From Siphonodentalium dalli (lineage: Eukaryota; Mollusca; Scaphopoda; Gadilida; Siphonodentaliidae): a DNA stretch of 64,000 nucleotides. Of this stretch, positions 2,539 to 56,791 are shown piece by piece (the first letter of the stretch is position 1; every line of letters starts with the position of its first letter). A program made the translations under genes and the position numbers. The notes under the pieces were generated by a model that was not told the origin of the DNA, did not search any database, and saw only the letters and a list, made by a program, of their open reading frames with translations. The stretch is from positions 260,618,077 to 260,682,076 of the forward strand of contig CP136061.1 in the NCBI GenBank assembly GCA_032622095.1, read 5' to 3'.

Positions 2539-3272
2539 TGTCCCCCAAAAATTTCAGGGGACTATTAAAATAGCCGGTGTCCGTCCGTCCGTCTGTCCGG
2601 AAATGGTTTCCAGATGATAACTTTAGTTTCGGTTATTAGATCAAAAGCAAATTTGGTACATGTATGTGTGTTTATCAGACTAAAATAAAGATCAAGTTCG
2701 AATATGGGTTTGCTCTGCCCATTTTTGCGAGAGTTATGGCCCTTTTTTTACTTAGAATTTTGTAATTTTCTGTTTTCCGGATGATAACTTCAGTTTGTGT
2801 GATCATATCTGAAACAAATGTGGTATGTAAGTTTATCAGACCAAAATACAGGTCAAGTTCGAATATGGGTGTGCTCCGCCCATTTTTGCAAGAGTTATGG
2901 CCCTTTTTTACTTAGAAATTTTATAATTTTCGGGTTTCCGGATGATAACTTCAGTTTGTGTGATCATATCTGAACCAAATTTGGTATGTGAGTTTATCAG
3001 CCCTATTAACAGGTCAAGTTCGAATATGGGTTTACCCATATTTGCGAGAGTTATGGTCCTTTTTCGACTTAGAATCGTGTTAATTTCTGGTTTCCGGATC
3101 ATAATTTTAGTTTGTGTGATCATATCTGAATAAAATTTAGTATGATAGTTTATTATTCACCATTTCATGGGACACTGGTTGGATTGTTCTGAAATGTATT
3201 ATCAGATTTAGGGTCCTTGATATTTTTTTCAGACAAGCTGATGCCCCAATGAAGCCACTTTTTTGGGGGGAC
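2539..3272 (+). repeat. Dispersed repeat with about four tandem units of ~165 bp
   Basis: The block opens with tgtcccccaaaaa and closes with ttttttggggggaca, which are inverted copies, so it may be a TIR element of about 735 bp. After a gtccgtccgtccgtctgtcc run, a unit of about 165 bp (ccggatgataact...cagtttgtgtgatcatatctgaa...gagttatggccc) repeats near 2608, 2776, 2938 and 3097, the last copy incomplete. A related copy in opposite orientation lies at about 18700-19135. No coding function is visible; small open frames inside are repeat shadows. Confidence 0.65.
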
Positions 3273-9432: not shown

Positions 9433-10455
9433 CTAAGAGAAACCTTCAGCGTTACTGGTCCTATTACAAGGTCTTCTTGTCACTATAAGGATTAACTCTG
9501 ATCTGAATCGTCTCCCCGACAAGCAGTACGTAACACAATTCAGGGCGTTGTTACCCATCGCTAATAGTGATAGACTTGACATGACACAGTTCATCTTTTC
9601 GTTCATGACTGGCTTCATGTAGTTAACGACCGACAGCGCAACAACGATAGGTAACGTGGTAACGAGAAGCTGAATAGTCGTTGCTATTAGTATGGGCGTA
9701 ACGGACGATGTTGTCTTGTCTTTATGTTGCTTACGACCTCCGATGACGCTACTCATCGACCTTCGTGTTTCTTTGATTTCCTTAACAATGACGGTATTGC
9801 AGACTACAAGTATTGTGACAGGGATAATAGAATATTTTGCGATGTCTAACCAATTCCATATATTATCGGTGAAATACATGTAGGCGTCTGGGCCATGGAA
9901 TGCACAACCGAACGCAGACTCGTTTCCGTAGTCTTTTTCAAATCCGTATATTAGGTGGCCGTTTACTAACGATGCGACAGTGGTTACGAATAATAATCGC
10001 ATGATGGGCGTTCGCTTTCCTGCTATTTCTCTGGGTATCTCGGATAACCGAACCGCCAACGTTCTGTCGATTGTCAGAATCACAAGAAACCAAATAGATA
10101 TATCTCCAAACGTATATGTCGCGAACTGCGTAACCTTACACGTGGTCGAAGAAATCGAAATGACATTCACTTGGAAACTGTATGTCAAGTAATTCGGGAC
10201 AAAGGTACACACATTTATAATATCGGCTATCGCCAATCCAATGAAGTAAATAGTAGACCGTTTCTTTACCATTGATGGCTGACAGAAAACCATAGTGACC
10301 AAGATGTTCCCGAATATTCCCAGAAAAACAAAACATCCACCCATTAACATCCACATCCATGTTGTTACAAGTGAATATACGGATTGTTGTGACTCATCCG
10401 TCAAGTCGCTGCTGTTTCCTGATTGGTTTATTTCCACCTTTAAAAATGACGCCAT
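9433..10455 (-). CDS. Rhodopsin-class (class A) G-protein-coupled receptor, peptide/FMRFamide-receptor-like
   Basis: A single uninterrupted frame of 340 residues, the usual length for the family, with seven membrane segments at roughly 33-58, 67-92, 104-136, 152-171, 205-227, 252-277 and 290-311. Family landmarks: GN at 49-50 (TM1), LAIAD with D78 (TM2), C106 and C184 for the TM3-ECL2 disulfide, IDR-T at 129-132 in place of DRY, P212 (TM5), TTLP ending at P269 (TM6), and NCVTY 306-310 in place of NPxxY. N-glycosylation sequons occur at N10 and N14; no signal peptide is needed. It should sit in the plasma membrane and couple a ligand to a G protein. The TM5 and TM6 patterns resemble invertebrate neuropeptide (FMRFamide-like) receptors, but molluscs have large expansions of such intronless receptors, some chemosensory, so the ligand is unknown. 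The start is the first ATG in frame. It is the only convincing intact host gene here. Confidence 0.88.
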   Translation of the reverse strand: MASFLKVEINQSGNSSDLTDESQQSVYSLVTTWMWMLMGGCFVFLGIFGNILVTMVFCQPSMVKKRSTIYFIGLAIADIINVCTFVPNYLTYSFQVNVISISSTTCKVTQFATYTFGDISIWFLVILTIDRTLAVRLSEIPREIAGKRTPIMRLLFVTTVASLVNGHLIYGFEKDYGNESAFGCAFHGPDAYMYFTDNIWNWLDIAKYSIIPVTILVVCNTVIVKEIKETRRSMSSVIGGRKQHKDKTTSSVTPILIATTIQLLVTTLPIVVALSVVNYMKPVMNEKMNCVMSSLSLLAMGNNALNCVTYCLSGRRFRSELILIVTRRPCNRTSNAEGFS

Positions 10456-11702: not shown

Positions 11703-11980
11703 TTGCACAGCCGAATAATTTACCAACATCGAGAAAGTTCAGAAGAGAGAAACAAAGCAGACACCAGAAATGAAAGGATAGGATATTTTATTTCAATACA
11801 CATACATATTACATAATAATGATAAGACTTATGGATAATTCTGTCGTATATTGTGGGGGATGGCATAATCTGGCAAGACTCTCTTTCTGCCATCCCCAGT
11901 ATGGTAAATATAGAAAGTAATAACTTATAGTAAGATGGCCTTGTGTGAGCCGTGCACATATTGTGTATATGTAAATTTAT
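11703..11980. repeat. 278-bp direct repeat, copy A (3' side of the LINE)
   Basis: Base for base the same as 17966-18243 in my reading, in the same orientation, 6,263 bp away. It abuts the (AT)n-tailed 3' end of the minus-strand LINE. It contains a small hairpin (ggggatggca ... tgccatcccc) and, on the minus strand, an aataaa. A 79-residue frame inside is identical in both copies but shows no domain. Likely explanations are a very long target-site duplication, or the 5' leader of a second, head-to-tail LINE copy. Confidence 0.9.
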
Positions 11981-11991
11981 ATATATATATC

Positions 11992-11997
11992 TTTATT
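11992..11997 (-). terminator. Polyadenylation signal AATAAA of the LINE
   Basis: TTTATT on the plus strand reads AATAAA on the minus strand, about 11 bp before the end of the element, the position expected for a LINE transcript's 3'-processing signal. Confidence 0.65.
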
Positions 11998-12256
11998 TTC
12001 CTCCATATAATGAAGAGATGTCAAATACAATCACGAAAATTTAACATATATACAATTAGAAAACATGACCACACAAAAAGTATAAATATGTCATATCTAT
12101 ACAAATAACAATTAGAATAATAACACAACACACGCAGCATCTATTTACATAATTTCATTCTCATGCACACCTACGCCTACCATTGCATTAGTTATAGGCA
12201 TACACATAGTCCTTCTGTCTGACACGCACATACAGACGACGTCCCCATACACGACA

Positions 12257-12375
12257 CATGCATACATATATACATACATACATACATACATACATACACA
12301 CATACATACATACATTCATACATACATACACATACAAAACATACCTCAATTCACACACACATTAAAATACTTACA

Positions 12376-12469
<94 letters not shown>

Positions 12470-12543
12470 CACACATATACACATACATACATATATACAT
12501 ACATACATACATACACATACATACACATATATATATATATGTA
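12257..12543. repeat. (ACAT)n and (AT)n microsatellites inside the LINE 3' UTR
   Basis: Runs of acat/catac (12257-12342) and at (12379-12475, then mixed to 12543). Open frames here translate to strings of I, Y, V, C and M and are artefacts. Confidence 0.9.
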
Positions 12544-12789
12544 TGCAATGCATATTTTAATACAAGCAACATATCAGACATCCCTTACACACCTACACAT
12601 GTCAGCATACATGAACAAAACAAACATAAATGTACGTTATTACGTGCACACAGCTACCACTCACCAGATATACAAAGTTACACGGGCGTCAAGGCACGTA
12701 GATTGGACGGACAGACATAACTATGTATAGATGACATCATAGATAATCATACAGTCAAGTAGACATATATTTTAGTTAAGCATCATTCA

Positions 12790-15700
12790 TTAGGGTACGG
12801 TTACTGAAACCATTGGTGTTTGTTCGATTCTACGATAGGCTTTCCATAAGCAAAATGTGCTATTTACCATGAAGTTTGTGAACAGGTCTGGCTCTTCAAT
12901 TTCGTCGAACAAATCCGGCGGACGTGCAGTTAAAAATACTTCCAGTTGTGTACGCGGATTGTAGCTATCCATTTTAAGTGAGCACGGAATACCGAAGAGA
13001 TTTAGTAATTCATACCATATGTCATTTCTAAGTTCCAGAATCATAGGACAATGTATGATTACATGTAAGGGCAGATCGTCAAACTCCGCACCACATCTGC
13101 AGTTACAATGTGTCTGTTCGGTACAGGCTATTATGTTTGCAACAGTTAGGTATGCCGCCTTGTTTGTCGGAAACTTGCGACAGGACTTCCACAGGCACGA
13201 CAGTGAGAGTGTAGGGTGAATATTATGGAAACGGTGGAGTGTTGGATCCGCGTTTCCAGAGAGTTCCCAGATTGAGTTAGAGGTTTCGACGATTGCATTT
13301 CGAACGATTTGCTTCCATGATGACCTTTCCGGAAATGCACATTTTGATACATACTTTGTTAAATAATGCATAAGTCGGTGATTTGCAAGGACATCTGCGA
13401 TATCGGCAATGAATGAATCGGCTGATACGCCGGAGATAAAGTATGAGTGTAGCCTAAGTAAAAATACAGATTTCGCTGCCTTGTCTGTAGATAAATGACA
13501 TAGACTGCCCAGAAGTAGGAGTTTTTTCTTATCCACAAAGCTTTTGACATTGCCTATACCCAGGAGTCCTTCCACTACATTTGTGCGCGTGTGCATACGA
13601 AGACCTTGTATTTTCTTTAGACAAAAACGGTGAGATCTTTCCAATGATAGGGTGTCTGAGTCTGACATGCCACATAATAGTTCACACCCAAATAGGCCTC
13701 GTGGCATAATGATTGACGTGTACATTTTTAAACTGCTAGTGGGTGTTATTCCTCCAGCATACATTCCTACGTTTGTTAGTGCGAAATAGCTTGAACGGAG
13801 TTTTTGTTTAATTTCTGTTGTGAAGTTACTCGTCTGGTTATATTTATGGAGCGGGATTCCAAGGTGTGTCAGATTATCGACTTCAGCTACATGTTTGTCA
13901 CAGAGAATCCACGATCTATCAACAGAAGCCTTTGCGTGTTCATTTTTGTTTTCATTAAAGACGATAATTACTGACTTTTGCTCGTTGTACTTGTATCTCC
14001 ATTTACGACTGTATTTAGTGCAAATATTCATAAGGTGTTGTAAACCACTTTCAGAGACCGAGAGCAATGTCATATCGTCCGCTTGCGTTGGGCATGAACA
14101 ATTAACAGAAAACATATTGAGCCCAGCTCCAGATACGGATAATTCTGACAATAGTTGATCTATAAATAGCATATAAAGTAGAGGGGAGACGACTCCTCCC
14201 TGTTTTGTTCCTTGTGCTATTGGAAACTGCTTAGAGAGAGTATTTCCATACTTTACTTGACAGGATGTTCCTTTAAGCATTTGGTAAAAAATTAACCAGG
14301 TTTTCTGATCAAAGTCTAACATGTAAAGTTTATAAAGGAGACCATTTACCCAAACGGTATCAAATGCCTTATGAACGTCTAGAAAGCATGCATATAATTT
14401 ACTGTTATTTTCACGTGCGAATATCTTCGATTCGTGTACTATGAGTGAGTTCATAAGACAATTGATACCCTTCTGGAATCCATGCTGTAGATTATGAACT
14501 TTGACCATGTCTGGAACATTACACTCTAGTCTTCTCAGTAAGATTTTTTCTAATAACTTGTAGAGAGCGGGAAGCAATGTAATTGCTCGGTAGCTATCAA
14601 AATTTGCTTGTGGTTTATTCCCACCTTTGTAGAGAGGTACAATTACGCCTTTCTTGGCAGGTTCCGGTATATATGAGAGAGACAATATTCCAGTCAACAA
14701 AGCGGACAGACATGTTATCAAAGCTGGACCACCAAATACCAAATGTTCATTGTAAACGTTGTCCCACCCTGCTGCCTTGTTCAAATTTAGAGTTTTGAGA
14801 GCACTTTCAAGTTCGCCAGGTTCAACCTTTTCGGTGATATGCTTGCAGCTACTGGACCCTTGTTTGCTATATTGCCCACTCACTAGTAGTTCTACATGTT
14901 CATTTACGAGATGGGAGTGATCTTGGTCGAAACTGCTGTCTGATAAAGGCGAATACAGCTTTTCAAAATAATTCGCCCAGCCATTAGTAATCTCAGACGA
15001 ATTTCTCAAGGTTGACCCATCATATTTGAAAATTTTGTTCGGCCTCTTATCTTGATTGCGCCTAGAGTTAAGGATCTTGAAAAAGGACCCTTGGTCCAGT
15101 TCAGCGGCTGTGTCAAGTTCGTTATTTCGATCAATCATATATTGGTTACAGCACATTCTATATTCCCGTCGGTAAAGTCTTTTCTGCGCTTTATAATCTG
15201 TATAAGTTAAATCATTTTCATCTCTTGGTCGACCAGCGGAAATCCACTGTCGTCTGCTTGATATCATATTAACATGCAATTGTTTCAAGCGACTATTCCA
15301 GAACGGCTTGAGATAACTTTTATATGTTTTACGAGGGACAGTCTGATTGGAGGCTAGCAGTATAGCAGCCACAATGGAGTCATATAATGTGTCCAAGTCA
15401 CTATTATTGACGATTGTGTGATTTGCAGGGAGTATTTCTTTTAAACAACATTGATACTGGCTGATTAAGGTAGGAGCCGCTTTAAATTTTTTCCAATTAA
15501 ATGTCGGTGTTGAGCTATCGTGTCGCCGGTCTGGTATGTCGCTTGGAACGTCACATTTAAATTGGCATACAATCGGTCTATGGTTCGATGCGCCAGACAA
15601 TACATCTTCAATAATTTCTGCATATGTGAGAGAAATGTATGGATCAAATTCAGAATAAAATATATAATCAATGCATGAACCCGACCCGTTCATAGTCGGA

Positions 15701-16305
15701 ACATAAGTGTTGCGGTTTCCTATGCAGAGAGAACTTCCATTTACTGATATAAATCTTTTTATAGCCAGAATATCACGCAGGGAATTGTCCCTTGCGCGTG
15801 TTTTGGATAGCGTACAATTAAAATCGCCCATAATAATGACGTGACCCAAGTCGAAATATTGATCGATAATATCACGCAGTGCGTTTACATATTGCAAATG
15901 AAAGTCATCGGTATAATTTGTTGATGGCAGGTAAACTTGGAATATGTACAGGTATTCTGAGCCAGGAAGTTCAACTTGGATTCCACATATTCTATCGTCT
16001 TCGAGTTGTATAGTTGATACGTAAGGATCTAAAATGTCCCTCCATATGAGGGCTACGCCGCCTTTGTATCTCCCACGCTGATGTGGGAGCCTCTGTGAAA
16101 AGTCACACACGACATGGCATTTGTAGTCACCTAACATAGGTTCAAGAATATGAGAGTTATGTGTATGGAGCCAGTGCTCACTTATACCGCATATATCTAT
16201 ATTTCTTTCGTGCACCATTTTATTCAAGTATCCACCTGCTAATGAGTCTGAAGAGGTAATACCTGTACAATTCCAAGTGGAGATTGACACCTGAGCGTAA
16301 GACAT
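12790..16305 (-). CDS. LINE ORF2 protein: APE endonuclease plus reverse transcriptase
   Basis: 1,171 residues with no interruption. The N-terminal endonuclease (about 7-250) keeps its active-site residues: N12 in STWNCTG, E43 in GISEHW, GDFN 160-163, ID 212-213 and SNHRPI 240-245. The reverse transcriptase (about 500-800) shows SYRAITLLPALYKLLEKIL at 571-589, HGFQKG 608-613, FLDVHKAFD 641-649 (catalytic D643), QGTKQGG 698-704 and QADD 741-744 (catalytic D743 and D744). Most clades have Y or F where this one has Q741. A CCHC-type cluster (C1067, C1071, H1081, C1086) lies near the C-terminus, as in many LINEs. No RNase H domain is seen. The protein should nick chromosomal DNA and prime cDNA synthesis from the nick. 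The exact clade is not resolved by eye. Confidence 0.93.
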   Translation of the reverse strand: MSYAQVSISTWNCTGITSSDSLAGGYLNKMVHERNIDICGISEHWLHTHNSHILEPMLGDYKCHVVCDFSQRLPHQRGRYKGGVALIWRDILDPYVSTIQLEDDRICGIQVELPGSEYLYIFQVYLPSTNYTDDFHLQYVNALRDIIDQYFDLGHVIIMGDFNCTLSKTRARDNSLRDILAIKRFISVNGSSLCIGNRNTYVPTMNGSGSCIDYIFYSEFDPYISLTYAEIIEDVLSGASNHRPIVCQFKCDVPSDIPDRRHDSSTPTFNWKKFKAAPTLISQYQCCLKEILPANHTIVNNSDLDTLYDSIVAAILLASNQTVPRKTYKSYLKPFWNSRLKQLHVNMISSRRQWISAGRPRDENDLTYTDYKAQKRLYRREYRMCCNQYMIDRNNELDTAAELDQGSFFKILNSRRNQDKRPNKIFKYDGSTLRNSSEITNGWANYFEKLYSPLSDSSFDQDHSHLVNEHVELLVSGQYSKQGSSSCKHITEKVEPGELESALKTLNLNKAAGWDNVYNEHLVFGGPALITCLSALLTGILSLSYIPEPAKKGVIVPLYKGGNKPQANFDSYRAITLLPALYKLLEKILLRRLECNVPDMVKVHNLQHGFQKGINCLMNSLIVHESKIFARENNSKLYACFLDVHKAFDTVWVNGLLYKLYMLDFDQKTWLIFYQMLKGTSCQVKYGNTLSKQFPIAQGTKQGGVVSPLLYMLFIDQLLSELSVSGAGLNMFSVNCSCPTQADDMTLLSVSESGLQHLMNICTKYSRKWRYKYNEQKSVIIVFNENKNEHAKASVDRSWILCDKHVAEVDNLTHLGIPLHKYNQTSNFTTEIKQKLRSSYFALTNVGMYAGGITPTSSLKMYTSIIMPRGLFGCELLCGMSDSDTLSLERSHRFCLKKIQGLRMHTRTNVVEGLLGIGNVKSFVDKKKLLLLGSLCHLSTDKAAKSVFLLRLHSYFISGVSADSFIADIADVLANHRLMHYLTKYVSKCAFPERSSWKQIVRNAIVETSNSIWELSGNADPTLHRFHNIHPTLSLSCLWKSCRKFPTNKAAYLTVANIIACTEQTHCNCRCGAEFDDLPLHVIIHCPMILELRNDIWYELLNLFGIPCSLKMDSYNPRTQLEVFLTARPPDLFDEIEEPDLFTNFMVNSTFCLWKAYRRIEQTPMVSVTVP

Positions 16306-16338
16306 ATCTGCTAAAGTAGATAATACAATTACAAAAAA

Positions 16339-17955
16339 TTAGAAGCTTTTGTTATACTGGAATTGTCGCCTGTCAAAGTCACCTTGAGATAACCATAGGC
16401 GACTGTGCACACCGCGAGGCCAGAAATGTTCATCGGTTACCGTCGAGATATCGTCCTCGTGAATGTTGATTCTGGCAGATACTGTATGCTCCTTCTTACT
16501 TTTCATCAAACGCAGAATCGAGAATCGAACTCCAGCTTTCGTGAGAAAGTTTTCAATAGCATTGTCAGTAACATCGTACATCAAATTACTCACGAATACG
16601 CGAATAGTGTTTATAGGCGTGTTACACTGTCGTCGTGTATTGCTACTTGTGTGTTGTGTGTTGTTGGGCCTATCACCTGGTGATGGGTGCGATCTGCTGT
16701 GGTGTGAATTTTCACGATCATTCCAATAGTTGTTTTGGGCCTTATAGTAACTTCCTTGATTTGAATGTTCAGGTAATGTATTTGCTCGTTTTGTTTCACG
16801 TTCACTCCGTTGTGTTGTGTCTTGGTTTTTTGTGTCATGTCGATTATATCGATCAATCTGATCAGAGTCATTCAAGTCGTCTACTGGAATAGAGTTATAG
16901 GAACTGTTTTTATCAGGTATCGGACTACTGGTAGGATATTTCTGTGAGCTTGTGTCGATTATGTTCTGGTTGAACCACTGTTGTTGGTGAGCACATAGTT
17001 GATTAAATCTAGAGTTTATTCCATTAAGAGCTTGTGAGGTGAACTGCTGGAAACTGCATGCGAATTCTCGCGAGAACATATTAAGTTTGTTATTTAGTTT
17101 GTCAATACATTTTATCTTGTTACAGTCATCAGATTCATTACTTTCCGATATTGGCTCGTCGGGGGCATTTTCCATATTATCTGGTTCATTACTTAAATGT
17201 TCATTTTCATTTGGTGTGTCGTTGGTTTTATTTGTTGTTTCACTGGGTTCTTTCGTTATTTCAGAGTTGTTCTTGTTCATTTTTATCTGCTTTTTGGGTT
17301 TTCCTTTTGCTTTCAGAGTTCCAATATAACCCGTGTTTGAATTGACAACTTTTCTGAGTGATTTGACGTCGTCTTTCGTTGATTCATTGTCCATTTTAAT
17401 TCCACGAATATCGTTTTTGAGTTTTGAAACGCCAGAACATCTCTCGTCGGCTGTGCGGTCTATGTCTAGCTCCATTGTCTCGATTTTTTCTTCAACTCTG
17501 TCGATTTTTTCCGACATCTGATTTATTATCTGGTCGTTATTATTCATTCTATCTACAAGTTTATTTATCGTCGCGGCTAGTTTTTCCGAGTAGTTCATAT
17601 TCTGTTCCTTCATCTCGTGAACTGTTTTGTACAAGTCTGCCAAACTGTGAATCGGTCCGAATTTATTTGTGTCATCTATGGTATCCAACATTTCTTTTGG
17701 CGTCTCGAAATTCTCTTTGTAGAGGGGCACAACATTTATAGCCTGACTGTTGATTTTCACTTTTGGTGCAGTGAGGACGTCAGCAATATGTTCAATTTTC
17801 TCATCAAGTATACATAACATCATTTGGTAGATATCATGAGAATATTTCACAGCAAGTGACGATTCTCTATCCGTGGACATTTCCCGATTTGCTCTTCGTT
17901 GTTTTAGAGTGCTATTTGGATTCATGTCTATTTTTTCAGATTTTGCAAGCTTCAT
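16339..17955 (-). CDS. LINE ORF1 protein (coiled coil plus RRM-like C-terminal domain)
   Basis: 538 residues. A heptad-rich coiled coil spans about 110-206, which in LINE ORF1 proteins drives multimerisation. Residues 220-445 are low-complexity and rich in N, S, T, D and E, with a basic stretch (KGKPKKQIKMNK). The C-terminal part, about 449-523 (TIRVFVSNLMYDVT ... FWPRGVHSRLWL), has the alternating strand and helix pattern of an RRM-like or ORF1-type nucleic-acid-binding domain. No CCHC zinc knuckle is present. By analogy with L1-type ORF1 it would coat the element RNA in an RNP and act as a nucleic-acid chaperone. It is followed after 33 bp by ORF2. The start is the first usable ATG, about 10 bp inside the direct-repeat boundary. 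Assignment rests on position and architecture, not on a strong domain match. Confidence 0.8.
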   Translation of the reverse strand: MKLAKSEKIDMNPNSTLKQRRANREMSTDRESSLAVKYSHDIYQMMLCILDEKIEHIADVLTAPKVKINSQAINVVPLYKENFETPKEMLDTIDDTNKFGPIHSLADLYKTVHEMKEQNMNYSEKLAATINKLVDRMNNNDQIINQMSEKIDRVEEKIETMELDIDRTADERCSGVSKLKNDIRGIKMDNESTKDDVKSLRKVVNSNTGYIGTLKAKGKPKKQIKMNKNNSEITKEPSETTNKTNDTPNENEHLSNEPDNMENAPDEPISESNESDDCNKIKCIDKLNNKLNMFSREFACSFQQFTSQALNGINSRFNQLCAHQQQWFNQNIIDTSSQKYPTSSPIPDKNSSYNSIPVDDLNDSDQIDRYNRHDTKNQDTTQRSERETKRANTLPEHSNQGSYYKAQNNYWNDRENSHHSRSHPSPGDRPNNTQHTSSNTRRQCNTPINTIRVFVSNLMYDVTDNAIENFLTKAGVRFSILRLMKSKKEHTVSARINIHEDDISTVTDEHFWPRGVHSRLWLSQGDFDRRQFQYNKSF

Positions 17956-17965
17956 TATTTCATTA

Positions 17966-18243
17966 TTGCACAGCCGAATAATTTACCAACATCGAGAAAG
18001 TTCAGAAGAGAGAAACAAAGCAGACACCAGAAATGAAAGGATAGGATATTTTATTTCAATACACATACATATTACATAATAATGATAAGACTTATGGATA
18101 ATTCTGTCGTATATTGTGGGGGATGGCATAATCTGGCAAGACTCTCTTTCTGCCATCCCCAGTATGGTAAATATAGAAAGTAATAACTTATAGTAAGATG
18201 GCCTTGTGTGAGCCGTGCACATATTGTGTATATGTAAATTTAT
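17966..18243. repeat. 278-bp direct repeat, copy B (5' side of the LINE)
   Basis: Identical to 11703-11980. It ends about 10 bp before the ORF1 start codon. On the minus strand, copy B leads into aataatgaaataatg and then aagcttg; copy A leads directly into aagcttg before the two diverge. This leaves a 7-base match after a 15-base gap, which may be microhomology at the 5' junction. Confidence 0.9.
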
Positions 18244-18278
18244 GAGTTTAGGGCTTAGTTTAAGAGTGTGTGAAAATG

Positions 18279-18342
18279 GATACTACCCGAGGGATGTTCA
18301 ATACCATGTATATGGTTCAAATTCAGATGATCGGGTAGTATG
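18279..18342. repeat. Short hairpin, actacccga / tcgggtagt
   Basis: Inverted 12-bp arms (atactacccgag and gatcgggtagtat) enclose about 40 bp. Function unknown. Confidence 0.4.
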
Positions 18343-18404
18343 TTTGGCGGACTACATGGATAACTGATTCGTATATATTGACGGTGAACGTGTTATATGT
18401 ATAC

Positions 18405-18600
18405 TTAACGGGGTACGTTCTGGGGGCAGTCTGGACATCCTCGATTCTTGTATTTGATATTGTTAGAATATGCGCTTATTGTTTTCTCTGTGATGTGTTT
18501 TTTGAATACGTGCCTACTTTGATTTTTAGTCATAGTGTTATCTAAGTTGTTCCATGAGGTGGGAATATATGAAAGGGTTAATAGCTTCACGAAAATCAGT
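18405..18600 (-). pseudogene. Possible relic of a LINE ORF2 C-terminus
   Basis: A frame containing SYIPTSWNNLD and then SRHVFKKHI resembles the SFxPxxxxxWNxL ... F pattern that ends many LINE ORF2 proteins, also seen at 24161-24577 and 34252-34537. It is short and no upstream reverse-transcriptase motif was found, so it stays tentative. If correct, direct-repeat copy B lies in this older element's 3' region. Confidence 0.3.
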
Positions 18601-18699
18601 TTCCACCCCTGTCCAAGGGATCCTGCTCTTTGTGCAATGACGCTGGTGGGTCACGTTGAATTGTTATGATGCTGTGAGGACAAAATGCTGCTGTGTCGA

Positions 18700-19135
18700 A
18701 AATTAGGGCTATAACGAGTAATCCATATGCCATGGAAATATGAAAACAAACAGATAACTATAACTAAAGCTATCACCCGGAACCTAACATATTCGTCAAA
18801 ATATAAGTAAACAGGGACCATAACTCCGGTTATAATAGGCGGACGGAACCCAAATTCGAACTTGACCTGCATTTTCATATTATTAACACACCCACCTGGA
18901 AACCAAATTAATCGGCAATTCTAAGTCGACAAGGACCATAACTCCGGAAAAATGGGCGAACCAATATTTTTGGCTAGTAAACTATACATAGCAACTGTCA
19001 TTCCATTCAGTTCATACTTACTAAAGTTGTGATCCGGAAACTAAAAAGCGAGCGGACAGACGGATGGACGGGTGGAGAGACCGACGGACGGATGAACCAA
19101 TAACATAATACGATCCGTTTTTTTAAACGGGCGTA
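18700..19135 (-). repeat. Dispersed repeat, second copy of the family at 2539-3272, opposite orientation
   Basis: ggaccataactccgg occurs at about 18813 and 18933, about 118 bp apart, with cgaacttgacctgcatt between. Then come gtgatccggaaac and an acggatggacgggtgg ... acggacggatg run (19040-19092). These are the reverse complements of gagttatggccc, aggtcaagttcg and gtccgtccgtcc in the 2.6-3.2 kb copy, but well diverged. Confidence 0.6.
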
Positions 19136-39830: not shown

Positions 39831-42800
39831 AGATATACCCTTGTTAGATGCCAGTATTGGAGGATATACCAGTATTCTATAGATATACCCTTATTAGATG
39901 CCAGTATTGGAGGATATACCAGTATTCTATAGATATACCCTTGTTAGATGCCAGTATTGGAGGATATACCAGTATTATATAGATATACCCTTATTAGATG
40001 CCAGTATTGGATGATATACCAGTATTCTATAGATATACCCTTATTAGATGCCAGTATTGGAGGATATACCAGTATTCTATAGATATACCCTTATTAGATG
40101 CCAGTATTGGAGGATATACCAGTATGCTATAGATATACCCTTATTAGATGCCAGTATTGGAGGATATACCAGTATTCTATAGATATACCCTTATTAGATG
40201 CCAGTATTGGAGGATATACCAGTATTCTATAGATATACCCTTATTAGATGCCAGTATTGGAGGATATACCAGTATTCTATAGATATACCCTTATTAGATG
40301 CCAGTATTGGAGGATATACCAGTATTCTATAGATATACCCTTATTAGATGCCAGTATTGGAGGATATACCAGTATTCTATAGATATACCCTTATTAGATG
40401 ACAGTATTGGAGGATATACCAGTATTCTATAGATATACCCTTATTAGATGCCAGTATTGGAGGATATACCAGTATTCTATATATATACCCTTATTATATG
40501 CCAGTATTGGATGATATACCAGTATTCTATAGATATACCCTTGTTAGATGCCAGTATTGGAGGAAATACCAGTATTCTATAGATATACCCTTATTAGATG
40601 CCAGTATTGGATGATATACCAGTATTCTATAGATATACCCTTATTAGATGCCAGTATTGGATGATATACCAGTATTCTATAGATATACCCTTATTAGATG
40701 CCAGTATTGGATGATATACCAGTATTCTATAGATATACCCTTGTTAGATGCCAGTATTGGAGGAAATACCAGTATTCTATAGATATACCCTTATTAGATG
40801 CCAGTATTGGATGATATACCAGTATTCTATAGATATACCCTTATTAGATGCCAGTATTGGATGATATACCAGTATTCTATAGATATACCCTTATTAGATG
40901 CCAGTATTGGATGATATACCAGTATTCTATAGATATACCCTTATTAGATGCCAGTATTGGATGATATACCAGTATTCTATAGATATACCCTTATTAGATG
41001 CCAGTATTGGATGATATACCAGTATTCTATAGATATACCCTTATTAGATGCCAGTATTGGATGATATACCAGTATTCTATAGATATACCCTTATTAGATG
41101 CCAGTATTGGATGATATACCAGTATTCTATAGATATACCCTTATTAGATGCCAGTATTGGATGATATACCAGTATTCTATAGATATACCCTTGTTAGATG
41201 CCAGTATTGGAGGAAATACCAGTATTCTATAGATATACCCTTATTAGATGCCAGTATTGGAGGATATACCAGTATTCTATAGATATACCCTTATTAGATG
41301 CCAGTATTGGATGATATACCAGTATTCTATAGATATATCCTTGTTAGATGCCAGTATTGGACGATATACCAGTATTCTATAGATATACCCTTGTTAGATG
41401 CCAGTATTGGAGGAAATACCAGTATTCTATAGATATACCCTTGTTAGATGCCAGTATTGGAGGATATACTAGTATTCTATAGATATACCCTTATTAGATG
41501 CCAGTATTGGAGGACATACCAGTATTCTATAGATATACCCTTGTTAGATGCCAGTATTGGAGGATATACCAGTAGTCTATATATATACCCTTATTAGATG
41601 CCAGTATTGGAGGATATACCAGTATTCTATAGATATACCCTTGTTAGATGCCAGTATTGCAGGATATACCAGTATTCTATAGATATACCCTTATTAGATG
41701 CCAGTATTGGATGATATACCAGTATTATATAGATATACCCTTATTAGATGCCAGTATTGGAGGATATACCAGTATTCTATAGATATACCCTTATTAGATG
41801 CCAGTATTGGAGGATATACCAGTATTATACAGATATACCCTTATTATATGCCAGTATTGGAGGATATACCAGTATTCTATATATATACCCTTATTAGATG
41901 CCAGTATTGGATGATATACCAGTATTCTATAGATATACCCTTATTAGATGCCAGTATTGGAGGATATACCAGTATTCTATAGATATACCCTTATTAGATG
42001 CCAGTATTGGAGGATATACCAGTATTCTATATATATACCCTTATTAGATGCCAGTATTGGATGATATACCAGTATTCTATAGATATACCCTTATTAGATG
42101 CCAGTATTGGAGGATATACCAGTATTCTATAGATATACCCTTATTAGATGCCAGTATTGGACGATATACCAGTATTCTATAGATATACCCTTATTAGATG
42201 CCAGTATTGGAGGATATACCAGTATTCTATATATATACCTTTATTAGATGCCAGTATTGGAGGATATACCAGTATTCTATAGATATACCCTTGTTAGATG
42301 CCAGTATTGGAGGATATACCAGTATTCTATAGATATACCCTTGTTAGATGCCAGTATTGGAGGATATACCAGTATTCTATAGATATACCCTTAATAGATG
42401 ACAGTATTGGAGGATATACCATTATTCTATAGATATACCCTTATTAGATGCCAGTATTGGAGGATATACCAGTATTCTATAGATATACCCCTTATTAGAT
42501 GCCAGTATTGGAGGATATACCAGTATTCTATAGATATTCCCTTATTAGATGCCAGTATTGGAGGATATACCAGTATTCTATAGATACACCCTTATTAGAT
42601 GCCAGTATTGGAGGATATACCAGTATTCTATAGATATACCCTTATTAGATGCCAGTATTGGAGGATATACCAGTATTCTATAGATATACCCTTGTTAGAT
42701 GCCAGTATTGGAGGATATACCAGTATTCTATAGATATACCCTTGTCAGATGCCAGTATTGGGGATATACCAGTATTATATAGTCATACCCTTATTAGATG

Positions 42801-45375
42801 CCAGTATTGGAGGATATACCAGTATTCTATAGATATACCCTTATAAGATGCCAGTATTGGAGGATATACCAGTATTCTATAGATATACCCTTATTAGATG
42901 CCAGTATTGGAGGATATACCAGTATTCTATATATATACCCTTGTTAGATGCCAGTATTGGAGGATATACCAGTATTCTATATATATACCCTTATTATATG
43001 CCAGTATTGGAGGATATACCAGTATTCTATAGATATACCCTTGTTAGATGCCAGTATTGGAGGATATACCAGTATTATATAGATATACCCTTGTTAGATG
43101 CCAATATTGGATGATATACCAGTATTATATAGATATACCCTTATTAGATGCCAGTATTGGAGGATATACCAGTATTCTATAGATATACCCTTGTTAGATG
43201 CCAGTATTGAGGATATACCAGTATTCTATAGATATACCCTTATTATATGCCAGTTTTGGAGGATATACCAGTATTCTATAGATATACCCTTATTAGATGC
43301 CAGTATTGGAGGATATACCAGTATTCTATAGATATACCCTTGTTAGATGCCAGTATTGGAGGATATACCAGTATTCTATAGATATACCCTTATTATATGC
43401 CAGTATCTGGAGGATATACCAGTATTCTATAGATATACCCTTGTTAGATGCCAGTATTGGAGGATATACCAGTATTCTATAGATATACCCTTATTAGATG
43501 CCAGTATTGGATGATATACCAGTAGTCTATGATATACCCTTATTAGATGCCAGTATTGGAGGATTTACCAGTATTCTATAGATATACCCTTATTATATGC
43601 CAGTATTGGAGGATATACCAGTATTCTATATATATACCCTTATTAGATGCCAGTATTGGAGGATATACCAGTATTCTATAGATATACCCTTATTAGATGC
43701 CAGTATTGGAGGATATACCAGTATTCTATAGATATACCCTTATAAGATGCCAGTATTGGATGATATACCAGTATTCTATAGATATACCCTTATTATATGC
43801 CAGTATTGGAGGATATACCAGTATTTTATAGATATACCCCTTATTAGATGCCAGTATTGGAGGATATTCCAGTATTATATAGATATACCCTTATTAGATG
43901 CCAGTATTGGAGGATATACCAGTATTCTATAGATATACCCTTGTTAGATGCCAGTATTGGAGGATATACCAGTATTCTATAGATATACCCTTATTAGATG
44001 CCAGTATTGGATGATATACCAGTATTATATAGATATACCCTTGTTAAATGCCAGTATTGGAGGATATACCAGTATTCTATAGATATACCCTCATTAGATG
44101 CCAGTATTGGAGGATATACCAGTATTCTATAGATATACCCTTGTTAGATGCCAGTATTGGAGGATATACCAGTATTCTATAGATATACCATTATTAGATG
44201 CCAGTATTGGAGGATATACCAGTATTCTATAGATATACCATTATTAGATGTCAGTATTGGAGGATATACCAGTATTCTATAGATATACCCGTGTTAGATG
44301 CCAGTATTGGAGGATATACCAGTATTATATAGATATACCCTTATTAGATGCCAGTATTGGAGGATATACCAGTATTCTATAGATATACCCTTGTTAGATG
44401 CCAGTATTGGAGGATATACCAGTATTCTATAGATATACCATTATTAGATGCCAGTATTGGAGGATATACCAGTATTCTATAGATATACCATTATTAGATG
44501 TCAGTATTGGAGGATATACCAGTATTCTATAGACATACCCTTATTAGATGCCAGTATTGGAGGATATACCAGTATTCTATAGATATACCATTATTAGATG
44601 CCAGTATTGGAGGATATACCAGTATTCTATAGATATACCATTATTAGATGTCAGTATTGGAGGATATACCAGTATTCTATAGACATACCCTTATTAGATG
44701 CCAGTATTGAGGATATACCAGTATTATATAGATATACCCTTATTAGATGCCAGTATTGGAGGATATACCAGTATTCTATAGATATACCCTTGTTATATGC
44801 CAGTATTGGAGGATATACCAGTATTCTATAGATATACCCTTATTAGATGCCAGTATTGGAGGATATACCAGTATTCTATAGATATACCCTTATTAGATGC
44901 CAGTATTGGAGGATATACCAGTATTCTATAGATATACCCTTATTAGATGCCAGTATTGGAGGATATACCAGTATTCTATAGATATACCCTTATTAGATGC
45001 CAGTATTGGATGATATGCCAGTATTCTATAGATATACCCTTATTAGATGCCAGTATTGGAGGATATACCAGTATTATATAGATATATCCTTATTAGATGC
45101 CAGTATTGGAGGATATACCAGTATTCTATAAATATACCCTTATTAGATGCCAGTATTGGATGATATGCCAGTATTCTATAGATATACCCTTATTAGATGC
45201 CAGTATTGGAGGATATACCAGTATTCTATAGATATATCCTTATTAGATGCCAGTATTGGAGGATATACCAGTATTCTATAGATATACCCTTATTAGATGC
45301 CAGTATTGGATGATATACCAGTATTATATAGATATATCCTTGTTAGATGCCAGTATTGGAGGATATACCAGTATT

Positions 45376-47730
45376 CTATAGATATACCCTTGTTAGATGC
45401 TAGTATTGGAGGATATACCAGTATTCTATAGATATACCTTATTAGATGCCAGTATTGGAATATATACCAGTATTCTATAGATACACCCTTATTAGATGCC
45501 AGTATTGGAGGATATACCAGTATTCTATAGATATACCCTTGTTAGATGACAGTATTGGAGGATATACCAGTATTATATAGATATATCCTTGTTAGATGCC
45601 AGTATTGGAGGATATACCAGTATTCTATAGATATATCCTTGTTAGATGCCAGTATTGGAGGATATACCAGTATTCTATAGATATACCCTTGTTAGATGCC
45701 AGTATTGGAGGATATACCAGTATTATATAGATATACCTTATTAGATGCCAGTATTGGAGGATATACCAGTATTCTATAGATATACCCTTATTAGATGCCA
45801 GTATTGGAGGATATACCAGTATTCTATAGATATACCCTTATTATATGCCAGTATTGGATGATATACCAGTATTCTATATATATACCCTTATTATATGCCA
45901 GTATTGGAGGATATACCAGTATTCTATAGATATACCATTATAAGATGCCAGTATTGGAGGATATACCAGTATTCTATTAGATATACCCTTATTAGATGCC
46001 AGTATTGGAGGATATACCAGTATTCTATAGTTACAACCCCTTATTATATGCCAGTATTGGAGGAGTATACCAGTATTCTATAGATATACCCTAATTAGAT
46101 GCCAGTATTGGAGGATATACCAGTATTCTATAGATATACCCTTATTAGATGCCAGTATTGGAGGATATACCAGTATTCTATAGATATACCCTTATTAGAT
46201 GCCAGTATTGGATGATATACCAGTATTCTATAGATATACCCTTATTAGATGCCAATATTGGAGGATATGCCAGTATTCTATAGATATACCCTTGTTAGAT
46301 GCCAGTATTGGACGATATACCAGTATTCTATAGATATACCCTTATTATATGCCAGTATTGGATGATATAACCAGTATTCTATAGATATACCCTTATAAGA
46401 TGCCAGTATTGGAGGATATACTAGTATTCTATAGATATACCCTTGTTAGATGCCAGTATTGGAGGATATACCAGTATTCTATAGATATACCCTTATTAGA
46501 TGCCAGTATTGGATGATATACCAGTAATCTATATATATACCCTTGCTAGATGCCAGTATTGGAGGATATACCAGTATTCTATAGATATACCCTTATTAGA
46601 TGACAGTATTGGAGGATATACCAGTATTCTATAGATATACCCTTATTAGATGCCAGTATTGGATGATATACCAGTATTCTATAGATATACCCTTATTAGA
46701 TGCCAGTATTGGAGGATTATACCAGTATTCTATAGATATACCCCTTATTAGATGCCAGTATTGGAGGATATACCAGTATTCTATATATATACCCTTATTA
46801 GATGCCAGTATTGGAGGATATACCAGTATTCTATAGATATACCCTTATTAGATGCCAGTATTGGAGGATATACCAGTATTCTATATATATACCCTTATTA
46901 GATGCCAGTATTGGAGGATATACCAGTATTCTATAGATATACCCTTATAAGATGCCAGTATTGGAGGATATACCAGTATTCTATAGATATACCCTTGTTA
47001 TATGCCAGTATTGGATGATATACCAGTATTCTATATATATACCCTTATAAGATGCCAGTATTGGAGGATATACCAGTATCCTATAGATATACCCTTATTA
47101 GATGCCAGTATTGGAGGATATACCAGTATTCTATAGATATACCCTTATTAGATGCCAGTATTGGAGGATATACCAGTAGTCTATAGATATACCCTTATTA
47201 GATGCCAGTATTGGAGGATATACCAGTATTCTATAGATATACCCTTATTATATTCCAGTATTGGATGATATACCAGTATTCTATAGATATACCCTTATAA
47301 GATGCCAGTATTGGAGGATATACCAGTATTCTATAGATATACCCTTGTTAGATGCCAGTATTGGAGGATATACCAGTATTCTATATATATACCCTTATAA
47401 GATGCCAGTATTGGAGGATATACCAGTATTCTATAGATATACCCTTATTAGATGCCAGTATTGGAGGAAATACCAGTATTCTATATATATACCCTTATTA
47501 GATGCCAGTATTGGAGGATATACCAGTATTATATAGATATACCCTTATTATATGCCAGTATTGGAGGATATACCAGTATTTTATAGATATACCCTTGTTA
47601 GATGCCAGTATTGGAGGATATACCAGTATTCTATAGATATACCCTTGTTAGATGCCAGTATTGGAGGATATACCAGTATTCTATAGATATACCCTTGTTA
47701 GATGACAGTATTGGATGATATACCAGTATT
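45376..47730. repeat. Higher-order repeat block 1 within the satellite (~2.35 kb, 47 monomers)
   Basis: Rare variants occur in the same order as in the next block: tgctagtattgg at 45398 and 47753; cagtaatctatatatat with cttgctagatg near 46521 and 48871; ttccagtattggatgat near 47252 and 49602. The spacing is 2,350-2,355 bp. Confidence 0.85.
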
Positions 47731-50080
47731 CTATAGATATACCCTTGTTAGATGCTAGTATTGGAGGATATACCAGTATTCTATAGATATACCTTATTAG
47801 ATGCCAGTATTGGAATATATACCAGTATTCTATAGATACACCCTTATTAGATGCCAGTATTGGAGGATATACCAGTATTCTATAGATATACCCTTGTTAG
47901 ATGACAGTATTGGAGGATATACCAGTATTATATAGATATATCCTTGTTAGATGCCAGTATTGGAGGATATACCAGTATTCTATAGATATATCCTTGTTAG
48001 ATGCCAGTATTGGAGGATATACCAGTATTCTATAGATATACCCTTGTTAGATGCCAGTATTGGAGGATATACCAGTATTATATAGATATACCTTATTAGA
48101 TGCCAGTATTGGAGGATATACCAGTATTCTATAGATATACCCTTATTAGATGCCAGTATTGGAGGATATACCAGTATTCTATAGATATACCCTTATTATA
48201 TGCCAGTATTGGATGATATACCAGTATTCTATATATATACCCTTATTATATGCCAGTATTGGAGGATATACCAGTATTCTATAGATATACCATTATAAGA
48301 TGCCAGTATTGGAGGATATACCAGTATTCTATAGATATACCCTTATTAGATGCCAGTATTGGAGGATATACCAGTATTCTATAGTTACACCCTTATTATA
48401 TGCCAGTATTGGAGGATATACCAGTATTCTATAGATATACCCTAATTAGATGCCAGTATTGGAGGATATACCAGTATTCTATAGATATACCCTTATTAGA
48501 TGCCAGTATTGGAGGATATACCAGTATTCTATAGATATACCCTTATTAGATGCCAGTATTGGATGATATACCAGTATTCTATAGATATACCCTTATTAGA
48601 TGCCAATATTGGAGGATATGCCAGTATTCTATAGATATACCCTTGTTAGATGCCAGTATTGGACGATATACCAGTATTCTATAGATATACCCTTATTATA
48701 TGCCAGTATTGGATGATATACCAGTATTCTATAGATATACCCTTATAAGATGCCAGTATTGGAGGATATACTAGTATTCTATAGATATACCCTTGTTAGA
48801 TGCCAGTATTGGAGGATATACCAGTATTCTATAGATATACCCTTATTAGATGCCAGTATTGGATGATATACCAGTAATCTATATATATACCCTTGCTAGA
48901 TGCCAGTATTGGAGGATATACCAGTATTCTATAGATATACCCTTATTAGATGACAGTATTGGAGGATATACCAGTATTCTATAGATATACCCTTATTAGA
49001 TGCCAGTATTGGATGATATACCAGTATTCTATAGATATACCCTTATTAGATGCCAGTATTGGAGGATATACCCAGTATTCTATAGATATACCCTTATTAG
49101 ATGCCAGTATTGGAGGATATACCAGTATTCTATATATATACCCTTATTAGATGCCAGTATTGGAGGATATACCAGTATTCTATAGATATACCCTTATTAG
49201 ATGCCAGTATTGGAGGATATACCAGTATTCTATATATATACCCTTATTAGATGCCAGTATTGGAGGATATACCAGTATTCTATAGATATACCCTTATAAG
49301 ATGCCAGTATTGGAGGATATACCAGTATTCTATAGATATACCCTTGTTATATGCCAGTATTGGATGATATACCAGTATTCTATATATATACCCTTATAAG
49401 ATGCCAGTATTGGAGGATATACCAGTATCCTATAGATATACCCTTATTAGATGCCAGTATTGGAGGATATACCAGTATTCTATAGATATACCCTTATTAG
49501 ATGCCAGTATTGGAGGATATACCAGTAGTCTATAGATATACCCTTATTAGATGCCAGTATTGGAGGATATACCAGTATTCTATAGATATACCCTTATTAT
49601 ATTCCAGTATTGGATGATATACCAGTATTCTATAGATATACCCTTATAAGATGCCAGTATTGGAGGATATACCAGTATTCTATAGATATACCCTTGTTAG
49701 ATGCCAGTATTGGAGGATATACCAGTATTCTATATATATACCCTTATAAGATGCCAGTATTGGAGGATATACCAGTATTCTATAGATATACCCTTATTAG
49801 ATGCCAGTATTGGAGGAAATACCAGTATTCTATATATATACCCTTATTAGATGCCAGTATTGGAGGATATACCAGTATTATATAGATATACCCTTATTAT
49901 ATGCCAGTATTGGAGGATATACCAGTATTTTATAGATATACCCTTGTTAGATGCCAGTATTGGAGGATATACCAGTATTCTATAGATATACCCTTGTTAG
50001 ATGCCAGTATTGGAGGATATACCAGTATTCTATAGATATACCCTTGTTAGATGACAGTATTGGATGATATACCAGTATTC
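47731..50080. repeat. Higher-order repeat block 2 within the satellite
   Basis: Nearly identical to block 1 apart from a few one-base indels (for example cccagtattc at 49071 where block 1 has an extra t near 46717). Confidence 0.85.
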
Positions 50081-51410
50081 TATAGATATACCCTTATAAG
50101 ATGCCAGTATTGGAGGATATACTAGTATTCTATAGATATACCCTTGTTAGATGCCAGTATTGGAGGATATACCAGTATTCTATAGATATACCCTTATTAG
50201 ATGCCAGTATTGGATGATATACCAGTAATCTAATATATACCCTTGCTAGATGCCAGTATTGGAGGATATACCAGTATTCTATAGATATACCCCTTATTAG
50301 ATGACAGTATTGGAGGATATACCAGTATTCTATAGATATACCCTTATTAGATGCCAGTATTGGATGATATACCAGTATTCTATAGATATACCCTTATTAG
50401 ATGCCAGTATTGGAGGATATACCAGTATTCTATAGATATACCCTTATTAGATGCCAGTATTGGAGGATATACCAGTATTCTATATATATACCCTTATTAG
50501 ATGCCAGTATTGGAGGATATACCAGTATTCTATAGATATACCCTTATTAGATGCCAGTATTGGAGGATATACCAGTATTCTATATATATACCCTTATTAG
50601 ATGCCAGTATTGGAGGATATACCAGTATTCTATAGATATACCCTTATAAGATGCCAGTATTGGAGGATATACCAGTATTCTATAGATATACCCTTGTTAT
50701 ATGCCAGTATTGGATGATATACCAGTATTCTATATATATACCCTTATAAGATGCCAGTATTGGAGGATATACCAGTATCCTATAGATATACCCTTATTAG
50801 ATGCCAGTATTGGAGGATATACCAGTATTCTATAGATATACCCTTATTAGATGCCAGTATTGGAGGATATACCAGTAGTCTATAGATATACCCTTATTAG
50901 ATGCCAGTATTGGAGGATATACCAGTATTCTATAGATATACCCTTATTATATTCCAGTATTGGATGATATACCAGTATTCTATAGATATACCCTTATAAG
51001 ATGCCAGTATTGGAGGATATACCAGTAATTCTATAGATATACCCTTGTTAGATGCCAGTATTGGAGGATATACCAGTATTCTATATATATACCCTTATAA
51101 GATGCCAGTATTGGAGGATATACCAGTATCTATAGATATACCCTTATTAGATGCCAGTATTGGAGGAAATACCAGTATTCTATATATATACCCTTATTAG
51201 ATGCCAGTATTGGAGGATATACCAGTATTATATAGATATACCCTTATTATATGCCAGTATTGGAGGATATACCAGTATTTTATAGATATACCCTTGTTAG
51301 ATGCCAGTATTGGAGGATATACCAGTATTCTATAGATATACCCTTGTTAGATGCCAGTATTGGAGGATATACCAGTATTCTATAGATATACCCTTGTTAG
51401 ATGACAGTAT
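50081..51410. repeat. Higher-order repeat block 3, partial (~1.33 kb, about 27 monomers)
   Basis: Matches the right part of block 2 with an offset of about 1,350 bp: cagtaatctaatatat with cttgctag at 50224, and ttccagtattggatgat at 50951. It joins block 2 in phase, as expected from unequal exchange. Confidence 0.8.
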
Positions 51411-53924
51411 TGGAGGATATACCAGTATTATATAGATATACCCTTGTTAGATGCCAGTATTGGAGGATATACCAGTATTCTATATATATACCCTTTTTAG
51501 ATGCCAGTATTGGAGGATATACCAGTATTCTATAGATATACCCTTATTAGATGCCAGTATTGGAGGATATACCAGTATTCTATAGATATACCCTTATTAG
51601 ATGCCAGTTTTGAGGATATACCAGTATTCTATAGATATACCCTTATTAGATGCCAGTATTGGATGATATACCAGTATTCTATAGATATACCCTTATTATA
51701 TGCCAGTATTGGACGATATACCATTATTCTATAGATTATACCCTTATTATTAGGTGCCAGTATTGGAGGATATACCAGTATTCTATAGATATACCCTTAT
51801 TATATGCCAGTATTGGAGGATATACCAGTATTCTATAGATATACCCTTATTAGATGCCAGTATTGGAGGATATACCAGTAGTCTATAGATATAGCCGTAT
51901 TCGATGCCAGTATTGGAGGATATACCAGTATTATATAGATATACCCTTATTAGATGCCAGTATTGGAGGATATACCAGTATTCTATAGATATACACTTAT
52001 AAGATGCCAGTATTGGAGGATATACCAGTATTATATAGATATACACTTGTTAGATGCCAGTATTGGATGATATACCAGTATTCTATAGATATACCCTTAT
52101 AAGATGCCAGTATTGGAGTATATACCAGTATTCTATAGATATACACTTGTTAGATGCCAGTATTGGATGATATACCAGTATTCTATAGATATACCCTTAT
52201 TAGATGCCAGTATTGGAGGATATACCAGTATTCTATAGATATACCCTTATTAGATGCCAGTATTGGAGGATATACCAGTATTCTATAGATATACCCTTAT
52301 TAGATGCCAGTATTGGATGATATACCAGTATTCTATAGATATACCCTTATTAGGTGCCAGTATTGGATGATATACCAGTATTCTATAGATATACCCTTAT
52401 TAGATGCCAGTATTGGAGGATATACCAGTATTCTATAGATATACCCTTATTAGATGCCAGTATTTGAGGATATGCCAGTATTCTATAGATATACACTTGT
52501 TAGATGCCAGTATTGGATGATATACCAGTATTCTATAGATATACCCTTATTAGGTGCCAGTATTGGAGGATATACCAGTATTCTATAGATATACCCTTAT
52601 TAGATGCCAGTATTGGAGGATATACCAGTATTCTATAGATATACCCTTATTAGATGCCAGTATTGGAGGATATACCAGTATTCTATAGATATACCCTTGT
52701 TAGATGCCATTATTGGATGATATACCAGTATTATATAGATATACCCTTGTTAGATGCCAGTATTGGATGATATACCAGTATTCTATAGATATACCCTTAT
52801 TAGATGCCTGTATTTGAGGATATACCAGTATTCTATAGATATACCCTTGTTAGATGCCAGTATTGGGAGGATATACCAGTATTCTATAGATATATCCTTG
52901 TTAGATGCCAGTATTGGAGGATATACCAGTATTCTATAGATATACCCTTATTAGATGCCAGTATTGGAGGATATACAGTATTCTGTAGATATACCCTTAT
53001 TAGATGCCAGTATTGGAGGATATACCAGTATTCTATAGATATACCCCTTATTAGATGCCAATATTGGAGGATATACCAGTTATTCTATAGATATACCCTT
53101 ATTAGATGCCAGTATTGGAGGATATACCAGTATTCTATAGATATACCCTTATTAGATGCCAGTATTGGAGGATATACCAGTATTCTATAGATATACCCTT
53201 ATTAGATGCCAGTATTGGAGGATATACCAGTATTCTATAGATAATACCCTTATTAGATGCCAGTATTGGATGATATACCAGTAATCTATAGATACACCCT
53301 TATTAGATGCCAGTATTGGAGGATATACCAGTATTCTATAGATATACCCTTATTAGATGCCAATATTGGAGGATATACCAGTATTCTATAGATATACCCT
53401 TATTAGATGCCAGTATTGGAGGATATACCAGTATTCTATAGACATACCCTTATTAGATGCCAATATTGGAGGATATACCAGTATTCTATAGACATACCCT
53501 TATTATATGCCAGTATTGGAGGATATACCAGTATTCTATATACATACCCTTGTTATATGCCAGTATTGGGGGATATACCAGTATTCTATAGATATACCCT
53601 TGTTAGATGCCAGTATTGAGGGATATACCAGTATACTATAGATACACCCTTATTATATGCCAGTATTGGAGGATATACCAGTATTCTATAGATATAGCCT
53701 TATTAGATGCCAGTATTGGATGATATACCAGTATTCTATAGATATACCCTTATTAGATGCCAGTATTGGAGGATATACCAGTATTCTATAGATATACCAT
53801 TATTAGATGCCAGTATTGGAGGATATACCAGTATTCTATATATATACCCTTATTAGATGCCAGTATTGGATTGATATACCAGTATTCTATAGATATATCC
53901 TTGTTAGATGCCAGTATTGGAGGA

Positions 53925-53952
53925 ATACCAGTATTCTATAGAATACTGGTAT
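53925..53952. repeat. 28-bp perfect palindrome inside the satellite
   Basis: ataccagtattcta is followed directly by its reverse complement tagaatactggtat. The rest of the array runs head to tail, so this marks a small inversion or template-switch scar. Confidence 0.85.
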
Positions 53953-56691: not shown

Positions 56692-56791
56692 NNNNNNNNN
56701 NNNNNNNNNNNNNNNNNNNNNNNNNNNNNNNNNNNNNNNNNNNNNNNNNNNNNNNNNNNNNNNNNNNNNNNNNNNNNNNNNNNNNNNNNNN
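56692..56791. other. Assembly gap (100 N)
   Basis: Exactly 100 N in the satellite, a conventional placeholder for a gap of unknown size. The true array length is therefore uncertain. Confidence 0.98.

Follow-up and report, generated by a model that had tools for sequence, protein, structure and literature searches.

How does a long interspersed nuclear element (LINE) come to lie between two long and identical direct repeats? This question is raised by a locus of the scaphopod Siphonodentalium dalli (assembly GCA_032622095.1, contig CP136061.1), where, in an analysed stretch of 64 kb referred to here as the window, an element on the minus strand is bracketed by repeats of 278 bp (the focal locus, window 11703–18243). 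Comparison with other copies of the family indicates that, very probably, a 5'-truncated LINE with two open reading frames (ORFs) and an endonuclease of the apurinic/apyrimidinic type (APE) inserted into an older LINE and thereby produced a target-site duplication (TSD) of 278 bp, that other young members of its family duplicated their targets likewise, and that the second break was uncoupled. The locus is composed as follows.

Window 17966–18243, minus strand: putative TSD copy B on the 5' side, the presumed ancestral target; identical to copy A, with the older LINE continuous across 18243.
Window 17956–17965, minus strand: residue of 10 nt before ORF1, consisting of 8 nt shared with the family and an unshared TA; 5' truncation point.
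Window 17955–16339, minus strand: ORF1, 538 aa, not matched with confidence in Pfam or the PDB.
Window 16305–12790, minus strand: ORF2, 1171 aa, with domains for an APE-type endonuclease and a reverse transcriptase.
Window 11981–12789, minus strand: 3' untranslated region (UTR) with a (TA)/(CATA) microsatellite, terminating in AATAAAG(AT)n.
Window 11703–11980, minus strand: putative TSD copy A on the 3' side, starting directly where the G(AT)n 3' tail of the family ends.
Window 18035–18603, minus strand: 3' part of the older LINE, the likely insertion target, with the end of its coding region, its 3' UTR and a TATCC tail.
Window 18243/18244: presumed position of the first nick, sense CTC/ATAAA; its counterpart beyond the element is 11980/11981.

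The two repeats (11703–11980 and 17966–18243) agree at 278 of 278 bases, as reported in a first-pass annotation of the window. The 278-bp sequence was searched against the genome (2.23 Gb, 9 contigs) and the best 40 of 960 first-look candidates were scored, among which only the two window copies matched over the full length. None of the other 38 matches begins before repeat position 44 in plus-strand numbering, and many begin at 70; they therefore cover about the first 209 bp in element orientation, so that among these 40 repeat positions 1–43 were matched by the two window copies only. These first 209 bp or so derive from the 3' end of an abundant older LINE, which bears an AATAAA signal and has a tail of TATCC, and the last 209 bp of the fragment of this LINE at 18035–18603 fall within copy B. 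A possible older LINE just past copy B had been suspected from the start; the fragment is there and runs on into copy B. Copy B and the sequence outside it were then compared with 14 older-LINE loci, which represent 11 distinct places as three were fetched twice. In all 11 of these other places the older LINE runs straight across the position corresponding to the outer edge of copy B (18243), and copy A starts exactly at the edge that the older LINE crosses in copy B. Since the older LINE is continuous across the edge of copy B only, copy B still has its original neighbours, and copy A is the addition. Judged from these sequence comparisons, the interpretation of the 278-bp repeats as a TSD, lying outside the element, is supported; it was also the interpretation that the annotation had favoured.

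The two-ORF, APE-type organization ascribed to the element was borne out. ORF2 matches Pfam models for an endonuclease (PF03372, E 2e-12) and a reverse transcriptase (PF00078, E 6e-30), both activities thus being predicted in one ORF as in APE-type LINEs, and in the PDB it is matched best by human L1 ORF2p and R2; no RNase H model was matched at E 0.1. The 3' end is constant, as AATAAAG(AT)n recurs in other family copies and is then followed by a different flank in each, 5' truncation is variable, and terminal repeats of its own are absent. The family stays a LINE despite its TSDs, which have the usual LINE length of about 5–30 bp in 0 of the 24 copies with readable length, because that length is a usual and not a defining trait. 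Penelope-like elements combine a GIY-YIG endonuclease with repeats that travel with the element; here the endonuclease is of the APE type and the repeats differ from copy to copy. Neither is the element an LTR (long terminal repeat) retrotransposon, the terminal repeats not being part of it. No second copy of the focal LINE was found by BLAST within the window, and a scan of viral contigs, a poor place to find an animal LINE, gave no relatives of ORF2.

Close relatives carry a 5' UTR, which reaches about 820 bp upstream of ORF1 in the longest (L018, L019, L020) and is shorter in others. Because this family 5' UTR is missing, the focal copy is not the complete element that it was taken for, though both ORFs are open. 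The repeat does stop 10 bases before the ATG of ORF1, but these bases are not a natural leader of about 10 bp, since the leader is short through 5' truncation. Nor are the 278 bp the leader of the focal element, because the true 5' UTR of the family is a different sequence. The word AAGCTTG at the 5' junction is native to the family's ORF1 start, and the same word also occurs at the second break in the target. Simple annealing at AAGCTTG would lose the bases preceding it, and those bases are present; the match is possibly due to chance. At its 5' join the focal copy shows 2 extra nt instead of matching. Elsewhere in the family, L023 and L024 (C9:104841842–104897035) form an inverted pair of complex loci, in which the 5' UTR is rearranged and pieces of ORF2 recur at a distance of about 2.28 kb.

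Further copies were obtained by a search with the 3' end of the family, for which the best 40 of 167 candidates were listed; 29 of the 40 were followed and 11 left. L079 and L082 were dropped because their flanks are identical and they are hence not independent. The tandem partner at C9:42.640 was set aside too, and the inclusion of L027, which a 5'-end match had revealed, brought the number to 27 copies. Finds by the 5' end without the usual 3' end in the compared sequence were not counted (L020, L023, L024, L026, L028–L033, L035). A copy passed if a direct repeat extended from its 3' tail to the element's 5' edge, or ran off the compared sequence at one end. Anchored repeats of this kind were present in 14 of the 27 real flank pairs and in 0 of 702 mismatched ones. 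Among the 14, three lie in tandem-repeat targets, where the length is unreadable (L019, C3:252.6, C5:207.5), while L025 and C1:206.0 look duplicated yet miss the strict filter; overall, 16 copies show some duplication and 11 do not. Long duplications therefore do not mark a single exceptional insertion, as first assumed. From the sequences they look like a family habit, common among pairable copies. Comparing the flanks of other copies had been proposed as the way to separate element from target, and other copies proved to have different repeats of their own, which points to target duplication. The annotation had also named a longer 5' UTR and ordinary short duplications in other copies as evidence that would speak against it. 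Longer 5' UTRs were found; ordinary TSDs of 7–30 bp were seen in none of the 24 of 27 copies with readable length, because an exact short-TSD test of the 11 unduplicated copies gave at best 4 nt (TATA in L080, overlapping the tail). An earlier idea, that long TSDs are confined to near-full-length copies, was dropped once further copies were paired.

Both edges of the duplication were seen in C5:146.5 (88 bp), C9:173.7 (106 bp), L081 (about 120 bp), L018 (253 bp), C9:42.6 Mb (423 bp) and L076 (about 476 bp). Both edges are also in view in L021, where about 1,275 bp are duplicated at 99.8% identity, ending at the element's 5' edge, and in L027, whose 5' copy measures about 772 bp; owing to 18 mismatches and 26 gap bases, identity in L027 is 94.5%. 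Larger duplications are implied at C1:52.6 Mb (1,363 bp seen at 99.6% within the sequence compared, about 2.0 kb implied), C4:106.4 (1,231 bp seen at 99.4%, about 2.1 kb implied) and C1:206.0 Mb (1,242 bp at 98.6%, about 2.1 kb implied, with internal repeats and neither end in view), and about 552 bp at L025, which has a variable tandem repeat inside. The lengths thus extend from 88 to about 1,275 bp where both ends are in view, and extrapolation takes them to about 2 kb; the median is 476 bp (13 lengths, four implied). No similarity was found among the 13 duplicated stretches outside tandem-repeat targets, and the nick context was T/A-rich in all five copies looked at. In L021, L076, L081, C9:173.7 and C5:146.5, matching continues for 2–4 nt beyond the 5' edge, part of which is expected from chance. 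At C9:42636787–42642888 two truncated copies form a tandem (period about 3.26 kb) in the order TSD-element-TSD-element-TSD, each copy (C9:42.637–42.643 Mb) being bounded by the same 423-bp duplication at 99.8–100% identity. A simple explanation of this tandem would be that long TSDs recombined with each other.

Among other explanations for the duplications, template switching survives best, although we consider it unlikely. Downstream of the nick, the end of the complementary DNA would anneal by microhomology to the top strand, so that the target is copied twice with no distant nick. The 2–4 matching nt past the boundary in the five copies named above would fit this scheme, but microhomology is also normal in ordinary LINE 5' joining, as stated in the relevant section of PMC4245944, and the focal copy carries its 2 extra nt instead of microhomology. 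Moreover, template switching alone does not account for the copies without a TSD.

Slightly less probable still is a repair trait of the whole host, such as weak nucleotide-excision repair (NER) in the germline, instead of a trait of the family. The length spectrum is indeed like that of L1 in NER-deficient human cells, as far as the pertinent part of PMC5223499 describes it. Two other families served as controls. Truncated older-LINE copies were tested at 4 of the 11 distinct places (L006 and L008 extend past the compared 5' side) and had no anchored repeat (0/4), with nothing longer than 18 nt among the best matches listed. From the related family, which is about 68% identical in ORF1 DNA and about 75% in ORF2 DNA, two 3' stretches were taken; L118 was usable, while L119 falls short of its 3' end. 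There was no anchored repeat within about 1.9 kb at L118, and when 504 bp from the start of its 3' flank were searched, only the flank itself matched in full among the best 40 of 4,095 candidates. Compared with 14/27 in the focal family, the 0/4 and 0/1 of these five control copies, few as they are, weakly favour a trait of the element over one of the host.

An assembly or haplotype artefact is very improbable: the loci were judged from the assembly, but duplications occur at 13 loci on 6 of the 9 contigs outside tandem-repeat targets (L025 and C1:206.0 included), and the mismatched-pair control gave 0/702. An LTR-like or Penelope-like terminal repeat travelling with the element, suggested by the position and identity of the repeats in the focal copy, is refuted because the flanks differ between copies: there is no similarity among the 13 stretches and no anchored repeat in the 702 cross-pairs, bases 1–43 recur nowhere else among the scored matches, and the first 209 bp belong to the 3' end of another LINE. 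Just as hard to maintain is a head-to-tail second copy with only a 278-bp 5' UTR left, for which the end of the repeat 10 bp before ORF1 and the family tandem at C9:42.6 could be quoted, since the true 5' UTR, up to about 820 bp long, differs from the repeat.

Several observations weigh against long duplication by an uncoupled second break as a rule of the family. Five of the 27 copies are less certain (L019, C3:252.6, C5:207.5, L025, C1:206.0), and in the three with tandem-repeat targets even a short TSD is possible. In 11 of 27 there was no long duplication in flanks covering up to roughly 3.2–6.4 kb (L022, L034, L036, L073, L074, L078, L080, C8:57.9, C9:204.7, C1:173.2, C7:117.3; for L022 up to about 7.6 kb, minus a gap of 441 bp). 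C7:117.3, which has no anchored repeat, contains an identical repeat of 84 bp in both flanks, off the edges, and weaker off-edge flank matches occur in L036, L073 and C9:204.7. The short-TSD test counted exact matches only, and at C8:57.9 the word ACATGT, common to the element and the 3' flank, could hide a TSD of 6 bp. The copy at C4:106.4 starts with a repeated piece of itself. The controls amount to five copies, and it may be that no TSDs are ever made by the older LINE. Finally, TSDs of more than 100 bp also arise with L1 in ordinary cells, making up at most 10% of L1 insertions in HeLa and 3/9 in complemented cells according to the data cited from PMC5223499.

For insertion with an uncoupled second break, we propose the following course. 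Integration would begin in the ordinary way for target-primed reverse transcription: one strand is nicked where the target is T/A-rich, and the DNA end set free there can base-pair with the (AU)n that terminates the RNA. The break in the other strand would then lie at a distant, unrelated position and not at a fixed short stagger. If this break falls downstream of the first nick, the region between would be duplicated as a long TSD; if it falls upstream, target sequence would be deleted and no duplication would be visible. The 11 unduplicated copies would accordingly represent target deletions, and breaks on either side of the first nick would fit the split of 16 versus 11. A more far-reaching version, which we regard as plausible but somewhat short of probable, is that the family has lost or never had coupled second-strand cleavage, so that the second break falls at random on either side, about half of the insertions duplicate 0.1–2 kb and the rest delete, and the TSDs subsequently recombine as at C9:42.6 Mb.

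Among known elements, Rte-1 of Caenorhabditis elegans has been described with flanking direct repeats of about 200 bp. It belongs to the RTE clade and possesses one long ORF, unlike the focal element with two. R9, a LINE of bdelloid rotifers, is not known to be of the APE type. Human L1, ZfL2-1 and Nimb-2_DR all combine target-primed insertion and 5' truncation with an APE endonuclease and a reverse transcriptase. Their TSDs are short, with about 15 bp for human L1, about 5 bp for zebrafish ZfL2-1 and 12–13 bp for Nimb-2_DR in the values taken from PMC4245944, whereas those of the focal family measure 88 bp to about 2 kb. R9 resembles the focal family as a natural LINE with an unusually long TSD, of 126 bp, called exceptionally long in the section consulted (PMC6895275); in contrast to the dispersed sites and widely variable lengths found here, it is specific for ribosomal DNA and a single TSD value is cited. 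There is also a likeness to human L1 in NER-deficient (XPA, XPC, XPD) cells, where TSDs range from hundreds of bp to several kb, the median being 1,495 bp versus 14 bp in complemented cells, and where the authors suggest a more distal unrelated nick as the cause (PMC5223499, passages on TSD length). Unlike those insertions in cultured cells, the copies described here are natural ones in an animal genome, and no ordinary short TSD accompanies them in the 24 of 27 readable copies. For truncated L1 in HeLa cells, TSDs of extreme length are reported together with deletions (PMC2912911), and a schistosome study gives up to several hundred nucleotides for L1 TSDs (PMC1291365). Long TSDs are also mentioned in a paper on Entamoeba SINE1 (PMC2996970). 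A natural LINE family like the focal one was not met in the open-licence literature searched, a scope that does not prove its absence.

The surroundings of the locus contain further features. A tandem satellite of about 20 kb occupies window 39831–59647; its period is close to 50 bp, and identity between the copies is about 94–95%. On the minus strand at 9433–10455 lies an ORF of 340 aa that by eye has the look of a peptide-receptor type G protein-coupled receptor. Short repeats with GGACCATAACTCCGG are located at 18762–18968, with related stretches near 2650–3155, and repeats such as GGACCATAACTCC, of a kind reminiscent of molluscs, occur near 18800.

In the text cited from PMC6895275, the latter half of LINE integration counts as very poorly understood. 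Natural insertions with broad duplications of 0.1–2 kb, and no ordinary short ones found, provide a counterpart to the repair-mutant cells, and setting the endonuclease and ORF1 of this family beside their counterparts in the related family could reveal what normally sets the stagger. Long TSDs could be mistaken for LTRs. In the genome, a single insertion can duplicate a whole regulatory stretch, and, if the second break is indeed uncoupled, the long TSDs left by this family would be substrates for recombination.

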